IMG/VR virus record: IMGVR_UViG_3300005515_000051
Span: 1-26,364 of that record
DNA length: 26,364 nucleotides
Source: a virus
Direction: 5' to 3' (one strand)
Shown in pieces: positions 22,805-25,708 of this stretch (its first letter is position 1; each line of letters begins with the position of its first letter). The position numbers were made by a program, and so were the translations under genes. Under the pieces are notes generated by a model, which was given only the letters and a program-made list of their open reading frames with translations, did no database searches and was not told the origin of the DNA.

Positions 22805-22969
22805 GTGACGCTCTTTGGAATTATTTGGGAAGACATGCAGGAGTCCGGTGAGTCTCCCCGCGAAAGCTACTTCGCCGAAACTCACTCACCAGCTTGGTAT
22901 GCTGCCCGAGAGCTTTGCCGTCAGCGGACTGCTGAGCGTCGAGCCAAAGCGGAGGGTCGGCATGAGTGA
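22805..22969 (+). CDS. Small hypothetical protein (54 aa)
   Basis: A GTG start follows GTGAGGACT. The product reads MTLFGIIWEDMQESGESPRESYFAETHSPAWYAARELCRQRTAERRAKAEGRHE, with a basic helical end. Its TGA overlaps the GTG of the methyltransferase (GTGA), so the pair is translationally coupled. No family is recognised. Confidence 0.7.
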   Translation: MTLFGIIWEDMQESGESPRESYFAETHSPAWYAARELCRQRTAERRAKAEGRHE

Positions 22970-24003
22970 ACCTCTACAATGACAATGATCCGGCGGTTTG
23001 CGCTTGGGTCGAAAGATTGGTGGCCGCTGGTCGAATTCCACCCGGCGACGTGATTTGTAAATCAATTACTGAAATTTCTTCCGATGATTGCCGAGGATAC
23101 GCTCAATGCCACTTCTTCTGCGGAATTGCAGGATGGCCAGTTGCTCTTGCCGTTGCAGGTTGGCCAGCAGATAAACCAGTTTGGACCGGGAGCTGTCCCT
23201 GCCAACCCTTCAGCGCGGCCGGACGTGGAGAAGGCGCAGAGGATGAGCGCCATCTCTGGCCCGCTTTCCATTCCCTCATCAGCGAGTGCAAACCTTCAAC
23301 GGTCTTTGGAGAGCAGGTTGCGAGCGCTGACGGAAGGCTGTGGCTCACCGCTGTACGTTCTGACTTGGAAGCATTGGGATATGCCGTTGGGGCTGCCGAT
23401 CTGTGCGCTGCGGGCGTCGGTGCGCCGCACATCCGACAACGGCTGTATTGGGTGGCCCACTGCAAGAGCGGAGGACAGTCAATGTTGCGGTGGCCATCGC
23501 GGCAAACCGGACTCGCTCTTGGCGGCGGCTCGGTTGGCGGGTTGGCAAACCCCAAAAGCCATGGATGGGGAGAGGACCAGCGCAGCAGTTCGAGGGCGTC
23601 ACGACTTGAGGACGGGGCGCAGGAGCTTGAAGGGAGAAGCTTGGATGGCGGGCTGGCCGACCCCAATGGCTCACGAAGCGAGGCTGGGCTACCAGCGCCG
23701 CGACAGGGGGAAGAAAGGGACACAAGAGAGCCTGACCACAGTTGTCGTCAACGGGGTGGGCATGAAGGAGCACCTGCCGGACCATATCGTGTTGCGAGTG
23801 AATCACCTTGGGCAAGACCTGACTTCTTATTCTGCCGCGACGGAAAGTGGCGGCCAGTTGAACCCGGAATTAGCCCGCTGGCTTATGGGGTTCCCGAAAG
23901 GGTGGTCCAACTACGCGGCTACGGGAACGCCATCAACCCGTACCAAGCGGAGGTCTTCATAAGGGCTGCGAACGACAACGCAGCCAAGTCGGAAGCCGCA
24001 TAG
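22966..24003 (+). CDS. C5 cytosine DNA methyltransferase
   Basis: The 345-aa protein transfers methyl from S-adenosylmethionine to cytosine. Visible motifs: I as FFCGIAGWPVALAVAGW, IV as TGSCPCQPFSAAGRG (catalytic Cys in PCQP), a VI-like VFGEQVAS, VIII as GAPHIRQRLYWVA, and IX/X as RVVQLRGYGNAINPYQAEVFI. The stretch between VIII and IX is the variable target-recognition region, with LADPNGSRSE-type repeats. A C-terminal FLFCRDGKWRPVEPGISPLAYGVPERV block is typical of phage enzymes. No cognate endonuclease is visible, so anti-restriction or regulatory methylation is likely. A second frame is coded inside (23084-23962). Confidence 0.93.
   Translation: MNLYNDNDPAVCAWVERLVAAGRIPPGDVICKSITEISSDDCRGYAQCHFFCGIAGWPVALAVAGWPADKPVWTGSCPCQPFSAAGRGEGAEDERHLWPAFHSLISECKPSTVFGEQVASADGRLWLTAVRSDLEALGYAVGAADLCAAGVGAPHIRQRLYWVAHCKSGGQSMLRWPSRQTGLALGGGSVGGLANPKSHGWGEDQRSSSRASRLEDGAQELEGRSLDGGLADPNGSRSEAGLPAPRQGEERDTREPDHSCRQRGGHEGAPAGPYRVASESPWARPDFLFCRDGKWRPVEPGISPLAYGVPERVVQLRGYGNAINPYQAEVFIRAANDNAAKSEAA
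23084..23962 (+). CDS. Second coding frame nested in the methyltransferase (292 aa)
   Basis: The whole ORF lies inside the methyltransferase gene in its +1 frame. The translation has family-like features: SPLYVLTWKHWDMPLGLPICALRASVRRTSDNGC, three GW-x-T(P/A) repeats (GWPTARAEDS, GWQTPKAMDG, GWPTPMAHEA), and an ending GGQLNPELARWLMGFPKGW. I recall these motifs, especially LNPxxxxWLMGxP, from phage proteins in databases. The same bases give GLADP/GLANP in frame one and GWPTP/GWQTP here, so the codes interlock. The start is uncertain: ATG 23084 has no good SD, and translation may begin later. Whether it is expressed is unproven. Confidence 0.55.
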   Translation: MIAEDTLNATSSAELQDGQLLLPLQVGQQINQFGPGAVPANPSARPDVEKAQRMSAISGPLSIPSSASANLQRSLESRLRALTEGCGSPLYVLTWKHWDMPLGLPICALRASVRRTSDNGCIGWPTARAEDSQCCGGHRGKPDSLLAAARLAGWQTPKAMDGERTSAAVRGRHDLRTGRRSLKGEAWMAGWPTPMAHEARLGYQRRDRGKKGTQESLTTVVVNGVGMKEHLPDHIVLRVNHLGQDLTSYSAATESGGQLNPELARWLMGFPKGWSNYAATGTPSTRTKRRSS

Positions 24004-24007
24004 AAAA

Positions 24008-24030
24008 AGGCCCCGGGGTGACCGGGGCCT
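24008..24030. terminator. Bidirectional terminator
   Basis: AGGCCCCGG - GGTGA - CCGGGGCCT is a 9-bp stem four bases after the methyltransferase stop. On the minus strand it is followed by TTTTT, which suits the small minus ORF at 24097-24201. On the plus strand the tail CAATTCT is weaker. Confidence 0.75.
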
Positions 24031-24096
24031 CAATTCTGGTGGGGCGGCATCTTTCAGCAGACGAACTTATCACAACGTGCCAGTAGCATTGCATAC

Positions 24097-24589: not shown

Positions 24590-25708
24590 ATGACCAAAGG
24601 CGACCGTAAGTCGCGTGGCGTAAAGAGTTCGAGTGAAACCAAAGAGCTACCCTGGCGGCCCTTCCATGACCGGCCGACAGGAATCTGGATCGACGAGACG
24701 GTGGCGCGGATCAAGGAGACCGGACAGCCGGAGCTGATCGAGTCCCTGTACCGGAATCCGATCCCGAAGAACTCGACCTTCCGGGTGCTCCGGCATCTGA
24801 TCACCGTGGACGGCACCAAACGGCCGGAGGGCGATAACTGCCCCTGCCCGATGTGCACGCCGAACCGCTTCCTGACCGGTTCACTGGTCTGGTTTCCCGA
24901 ACTCCAGTGCTGTGCCTTCATCGGCAACTGCTGCGCCGATGATGACGTCTTGGCCGAGGCCGAGAAGGAGCGCAAATGGCGCGAACGGCGAGACTTCGAG
25001 GAGGACTATCTCCTTGCGGCGCTACCGCTGGTCGGGCCGAAGCTGATGGTCCTGGAGACGCTGAAGCCGATCGCTCTGGAGGCCGTGCGATCTTACCGGA
25101 AGATCCGCAACACCCTGCCCCAAGTCCACGAGCAGCTCCGGAAGATGAAGCAGCATCACGGCGGCGAGCTTACGCTGACCGAGATCATCAAGGACGACTC
25201 CCAGCAGCGGGACGACGACTACTTCGGACCGGCCGGTTTCAAGGGTCGCGGCAAGGACGGCATCGAGAGCCGCGACCATACCTTCGGCATCTTCTCCGGC
25301 CACATCGCCGTCCATAAAGACTACAACCCCACCAAGGAGCTTGAGGATATCCACCGGTCCTTTACGTCGGTGGCGTCGGACTCCTACGGCCAGGATGCAC
25401 TGGACTTCATCGTCAGCATGACCGAAGCGCAGCGCCACGCCGCAGTGGTCATCTTGCGCGACGCCGAGGCCAAGACCGTCAGGTTCAAGGAACGCCTGCT
25501 CGATCTTTCCATGTTCTTCACCCGCGCCAATGCCGAGAAGCTCAACCGCTTCTTCACGCACGACCTCAACAACATCTACTACAAGGTCGAGTACACGACC
25601 GTGCGAGGCCAGCCGACGCTGAGGTTCAAGAAGGGCGCGAGCAACTACGACCTGATCCGGGGCTCGTGGGCGGAGAAGCTGGAGTTCGACTGGCCCAAGT
25701 CAGAATAA
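24590..25708 (+). CDS. Unrecognised 372-aa protein next to the attachment site
   Basis: ATG 24590 follows AGGGG. The N-terminal third holds a Cys cluster, CPCPMC at about residues 83-88 and CCAFIGNCC at about 106-114, which could bind zinc. A helical region follows (KERKWRERRDFEEDYLLAALPLVGPKLMVLETLKPIALEAVRSYRKIRNTLPQVHEQLRKM). Then come a Gly/Asp-rich loop (DDDYFGPAGFKGRGKDGIESRDH) and a helical C-terminus with a DLNNIYYKVEYTTVRGQPTLRF strand end. I do not recognise the family. Being the last gene before the att site, with codon use richer in GC than its neighbours and structured flanks, it looks like an independently acquired cargo gene. Confidence 0.85.
   Translation: MTKGDRKSRGVKSSSETKELPWRPFHDRPTGIWIDETVARIKETGQPELIESLYRNPIPKNSTFRVLRHLITVDGTKRPEGDNCPCPMCTPNRFLTGSLVWFPELQCCAFIGNCCADDDVLAEAEKERKWRERRDFEEDYLLAALPLVGPKLMVLETLKPIALEAVRSYRKIRNTLPQVHEQLRKMKQHHGGELTLTEIIKDDSQQRDDDYFGPAGFKGRGKDGIESRDHTFGIFSGHIAVHKDYNPTKELEDIHRSFTSVASDSYGQDALDFIVSMTEAQRHAAVVILRDAEAKTVRFKERLLDLSMFFTRANAEKLNRFFTHDLNNIYYKVEYTTVRGQPTLRFKKGASNYDLIRGSWAEKLEFDWPKSE

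Follow-up and report, generated by a model that had tools for sequence, protein, structure and literature searches.

Does a long reading frame nested inside a viral methyltransferase gene encode a protein of its own, and if so, what would that protein contribute? The question is raised by a 26.4 kb virus record (the window, i.e., the whole stretch of 26,364 nucleotides analysed here), in which terminase, portal, head, and replication genes are present. Long same-strand dual coding has rarely been demonstrated in bacteria and phages, and at this locus it would span about 880 bases. Unless a locus handle is given, coordinates below are those of the window, and alpha, beta, and their mapped parts lie on its + strand.

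Two reading frames at one locus

The frame-0 gene, alpha (22966..24003), has a GTG start and encodes a 345-aa C5-cytosine methyltransferase matching PF00145 (4.6e-13) and phrog_363 (1.2e-67). A Shine-Dalgarno-like GGAGGG (22951..22956) is located 9 bases 5' of the GTG. A 54-aa ORF (22805..22969), for which a Pfam search gave no match, shares a four-base overlap (GTGA) with the alpha start and is possibly coupled to alpha in translation, judging from this arrangement. The nested ORF, beta (23084..23962), is read in the +1 frame, which is open from 23054 on; its start is uncertain, and from the ATG it encodes up to 292 aa. Both ORFs are present as claimed by the initial annotation, which had also correctly described three GWxT(P/A) repeats (GWPTA, GWQTP, and GWPTP) and LNPELARWLMGFP, all in the +1 frame, and the reading of the same bases as LADP in frame 0 and WPTP in +1.

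Just 3' of alpha, a GC-rich inverted repeat (ggccccggggtgaccggggcc, 24009-24031), spotted by eye, is possibly a terminator. Downstream, a 372-aa ORF (24590-25708) has phrog_33379 (2.5e-08), a family of unknown function, as its sole match.

Conservation of the +1 frame

Eighty viral homologues were chosen by frame-0 alignment only. All of them (80/80) have a stretch of 246 or more codons without a stop, always in the +1 phase, and each of these stretches matches the +1 protein of the window significantly. The longest +2 run in the same homologues has 31-146 codons and never reaches 246. In a larger set of 159 homologues, 99% have a +1 run spanning 60% or more of alpha, a coverage reached by the +2 run in 0% and by antisense runs in 2-8%; since some of these homologues were found via the +1 protein, the 80 frame-0-selected loci constitute the cleaner sample. 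Conserved antisense coding is ruled out by these figures: the minus-strand frames that the initial annotation had noticed are indeed open in the window, but they are not a conserved feature. A tblastn search with the +1 protein matched 183 phage records, every one with less than 60% identity, and a single-sequence scan of viral contigs with frame 0 recovered one locus only.

The +1 frame could also be a mere shadow of a conserved methyltransferase frame combined with high GC content. When frame 0 of the window was shuffled synonymously, a +1 run of the observed length arose in 8/2000 trials, so the window alone is not decisive. Across the 80 homologues the observed run was reached in 153 of 24,000 shuffles, and for 10 homologues of 43-48% GC in none of 3000, which, like the +2 frame that is never open, argues against a shadow.

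Selection on the two frames

The substitution pattern bears on the same alternative. Read as effect sizes rather than as a formal test, as homologue pairs are not phylogenetically independent (the same holds for the divergences and codon figures below), per-site differences at codon positions 1/2/3 of frame 0 amount to 0.086/0.047/0.230 in motifs I-VIII and 0.075/0.070/0.348 in motif X, where frame 0 leads, and to 0.404/0.272/0.308 in the target recognition (TRD) region from VIII to X and 0.217/0.117/0.176 in the motif IX-like stretch, where +1 leads. Because the first position of a frame-0 codon is the third of a +1 codon, the selected frame switches exactly between VIII and X.

Outside beta, 4-fold sites diverge by 0.63-0.65 on its 5' side and 0.49-0.57 on its 3' side. 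Inside it, the values drop to 0.20-0.25 over alpha codons 106-150, to 0.165 at motif IX, and to 0.144 at LADP/WPTP. With the codon use in unoverlapped parts as background, several alpha residues are locked to one codon: Pro304 to CCG (100%, background 41%), Ala306 to GCT (100%, background 17%), and Gly308 to GGG (100%, background 21%), as well as, upstream, Phe114 to TTT (99%, background 29%) and Leu127 to CTC (95%, background 21%). Codon choice in motif X is near background. The lock implies that A(H/Y)GxPxR in alpha largely shadows LMGFP in beta.

The initial annotation had named two observations beforehand as speaking against dual coding, namely +1 stops in homologues and selection confined to the methyltransferase frame. 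None of the 80 frame-0-selected homologues breaks the frame, and the region from VIII to X follows +1. The shuffles, the position-specific flip in substitutions, and the codon lock rule out a shadow of frame 0, an explanation left with practically no probability, and dual coding at the locus is near certain.

Motifs divided between alpha and beta

Alpha contains the AdoMet motif I (FFCGIAGWPVALAVAG, 23113..23160, delimited in the alignment of homologues), the PCQ of motif IV (PCQPFS with the catalytic Cys79, 23197..23214), the Glu of motif VI (GEQV replacing ENV, 23308..23319), the RxR of motif VIII (GAPHIRQRLYWVA, 23419..23457), and the GN of motif X (LRGYGNAINP, 23911..23940), all of them features of C5-cytosine methyltransferases. 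Residues F51, G53, P78, C79, E116, R157, R159, G320, and N321 are invariant in 85 homologues; H155 in motif VIII and A322 in motif X are invariant too. The alpha model, with M.HaeIII and M.HhaI as the nearest solved folds, has two confident parts, residues 1-165 (the catalytic core) and 320-345 (the motif X helix). The part between them is predicted to be disordered (pLDDT about 36-59 in the stretch over the beta modules, 23461..23817, where substitutions are of the +1 type). By alignment and by model, the polypeptide with the catalytic motifs holds neither motif IX nor a recognisable TRD. The initial assignment of all C5 motifs to frame 0 thus stands for I, IV, VI, VIII, and X, but not for motif IX and the TRD, which are in +1; their position is the key to the role of the nested gene.

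The suspicion that the +1 protein belongs to a family was borne out by a database search, in which beta matched the catalogued phage family phrog_1008 (1.2e-31) and its C-terminal part phrog_31772 (1.4e-22). Both families bear the name 'DNA methyltransferase'; Pfam and NCBIfam have no model for beta. Between VIII and IX, betas contain repeats of the form WPTPxAxD...LAG (median 36 aa); the number of strict WxTP matches in a protein ranges from 0 to 5. In the window, module 1 (WPTARAEDS...LLAAARLAG, 23453..23542) and module 2 (WQTPKAMDG...AWMAG, 23543..23653) were delimited from the sequence and the module analysis; they are followed by module 3 (WPTPMAHEARLGY..., 23654..23812), which the alpha frame reads as LADPNG. 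Modules at least 60% identical recur in betas of 26-45% overall identity, at differing array positions, as would be expected of swappable recognition or specificity modules. Multispecific C5 methyltransferases are defined by several exchangeable TRDs between VIII and IX, and the repeated modules of about 36 aa make beta a candidate for an arrangement of this type.

The C-terminal end of beta consists of the motif IX-like LNPELARWLMGFPKGW (23858..23905, GISPLAYGVPERV in the alpha frame), where the codon lock is also found, and a short tail; W266, L267, and G269 are invariant in 108 betas. In the beta model, a motif IX helix is predicted at residues 261-268, while the modules are poorly predicted (mean pLDDT 60). 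The most confident part is a helix and hairpin at residues 66-113 (23279..23422; pLDDT 82-90 at residues 71-110), read over alpha motifs VI-VIII. Comparison of the model with PDB folds gave no match and no methyltransferase small domain, and searches of PDB sequences with beta and C-terminal profiles gave no usable solved structure.

Start of beta

In homologues, a start codon with a Shine-Dalgarno sequence is enriched at alpha codons 28-45 (0.49 vs. 0.13 in shuffles). At the matching place in the window, ATG 23084 is without a Shine-Dalgarno sequence, and better sites are located at TTG 23147 and ATG 23243. As constraint is raised from about 23191, the beta start should precede this position, which disfavours ATG 23243. 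The conserved DERH site (alpha codons 84-97) was also considered as the place of the start and rejected as weaker, GAT not being favoured over GAC there (28 vs. 78). Both frames are annotated as genes in PhiXhv-5, K1ind2, and Arcticfreeze, and the +1 frame only in PMG1; dual coding explains why 'DNA methyltransferase' annotations are found on one frame, the other, or both.

Programmed frameshifting, in which the ribosome leaves frame 0 for +1 after motif VIII, would yield one fused enzyme rather than two proteins. Given two shifts, the order I-VIII (frame 0), TRD-IX (+1), and X (frame 0) is indeed that of a canonical enzyme. However, motif X requires a second shift back, and the +1 frame is locked well 5' of motif VIII, as indicated by the low 4-fold divergence at alpha codons 106-150 and the codons of Phe114 and Leu127. 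The model also predicts that +1 upstream of motif VIII folds as the confident helix and hairpin, and starts with a Shine-Dalgarno sequence are enriched upstream. Frameshifting is therefore considered very unlikely.

One-frame, tandem, and nested relatives

The mycobacteriophage protein ShiLan gp70 is a methyltransferase read in one frame, the C-terminal half of which consists of LPTPxAxD modules and LAPAFSEWMMGWPAGWVT, followed by motif X. The beta family, phrog_1008, matches its residues 196-388 (2e-61), and the alpha family, phrog_363, matches the whole protein; phrog_1008 is thus a family of both nested betas and single-frame C-termini, catalogued just as DNA methyltransferase. Like beta, the single-frame ShiLan gp70, PHappiness gp71, and Babsiella gp54 contain PTPxAxD modules and an LxxAFxEWMMGxPxGW motif IX; unlike the locus, they have everything, including I-VIII and X, in one frame. 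Their +1 frame is open over at most 27-39% of the gene, so the single-frame enzymes have no comparable +1 frame, another point against a shadow. Comparison of the beta C-terminus with single-frame and tandem-split C-termini by hhalign gave 2.1e-9 over 21 columns at motif IX.

Tandem-split relatives are found in Romney (gp78/77), Dorothy (gp71/72), and MadKillah (gp6/5), where the second gene contains the TRD, IX, and X. The nested form occurs also in Paenibacillus phage Arcticfreeze, plasmid pAP1, and Clostridia genomes, and dual coding, with clear signals in both frames, is seen in phages that infect Gram-negative as well as Gram-positive hosts. The same enzyme thus exists in single-frame, tandem, and nested forms, a series from which it may be proposed that the nested form descends from a one-frame ancestor through frame changes that compensated each other.

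Accessory functions are common among overprinted genes, and beta might be genuinely overprinted yet serve a different purpose, e.g., as a regulator or an anti-restriction protein binding the methyltransferase. Its N-terminal helix and hairpin, which is not known from single-frame enzymes, would fit such a role. Yet beta holds the TRD-IX half of single-frame methyltransferases, and alpha is without that half; a separate role appears unlikely.

A probable two-polypeptide methyltransferase

The arrangement of motifs and homologies suggests that the locus very probably encodes a two-polypeptide cytosine-5 DNA methyltransferase with its specificity half overprinted in +1. Alpha, with motifs I-VIII and X, would supply the catalytic fold and the AdoMet site. 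Beta, translated in the +1 frame from a separate start codon inside alpha, would supply the part that lies between VIII and X in a normal enzyme, namely target recognition by the WxTP modules and the motif IX helix holding the TRD. The two polypeptides would assemble into one active enzyme, with beta presumably setting the methylation specificity and target site of the complex.

Cytosine-5 methyltransferases made of two polypeptides have precedents. In M.EcoHK31I, the larger polypeptide contains motifs I-VIII, X, and the predicted TRD, and the smaller one motif IX, whereas in M.AquI motifs IX and X are in the smaller subunit (PMC3404938). Judged from coding frames and motif layout, the locus resembles M.EcoHK31I (YGGCCR) in that alpha has I-VIII and X, and motif IX is in a second reading. 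The coding sequence of the small M.EcoHK31I subunit lies within that of the large subunit, in a different frame, and the enzyme requires the two subunits together in vitro. The locus differs from it in the TRD, which is apparently in beta and would consist of several modules (the WxTP repeats), alpha being disordered in the model and evolving in the +1 manner at this place. It also differs in being a phage gene with no recognised endonuclease alongside. With M.AquI (CYCGRG) the locus shares the split of a C5 enzyme in the variable region, and the tandem splits of mycobacteriophages resemble M.AquI; however, motif X stays in alpha at the locus, so that IX and X are not together in the second subunit, and beta is nested. 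Taken by this comparison, the locus would work most like M.EcoHK31I, except that target recognition seems to fall to beta. Searches of the open-access literature turned up no description of overprinting of this kind in phage C5 methyltransferases.

It appears moderately probable that the locus represents a class of phage C5 methyltransferases that is widespread but has gone unrecognised, with a whole specificity subunit in +1, in which modules recombine between phages while both frames stay open. Specificity would then evolve in the overlapping gene, and the catalytic chain would carry its disordered shadow. Cloning a phage methyltransferase as one recoded ORF is predicted to leave out its second half in many cases. 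The locus also offers a tractable system for studying the evolution of two frames, and of swappable recognition modules, within one stretch of bases.

Variants of the nested frame

A second 'DNA methyltransferase' of Streptococcus phage P0095 (L224:1652-2071), annotated in +1 within the gene of a canonical enzyme, was set aside as probably a different phenomenon: it contains neither WxTP nor motif IX, and the canonical enzyme around it has a motif IX of its own. The ORF is probably a spurious gene call.

Close relatives among the nested loci (L006-L021, about 37-41% GC) differ chiefly by whole WxTP modules gained or lost, both frames staying open. Five betas (L014, L016, L020, L217, and L227) have another N-terminal segment (YDPxTxSLRTFQxSL...LPKSGMMRNGK-like). 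These include the beta of Arthrobacter phage Lymara, where the +1 frame within gp76 appears to be joined in frame to gp77. In L134 (1387-2829), the beta frame continues past motif IX without a stop into an MT-A70 methyltransferase (PF05063, 8e-25). This is either a genuine fusion, or else the two genes overlap without a gap and the second has a start of its own. In L194 (1312-2619), the +1 frame continues into a recombination endonuclease VII domain (PF02945, 6e-24).
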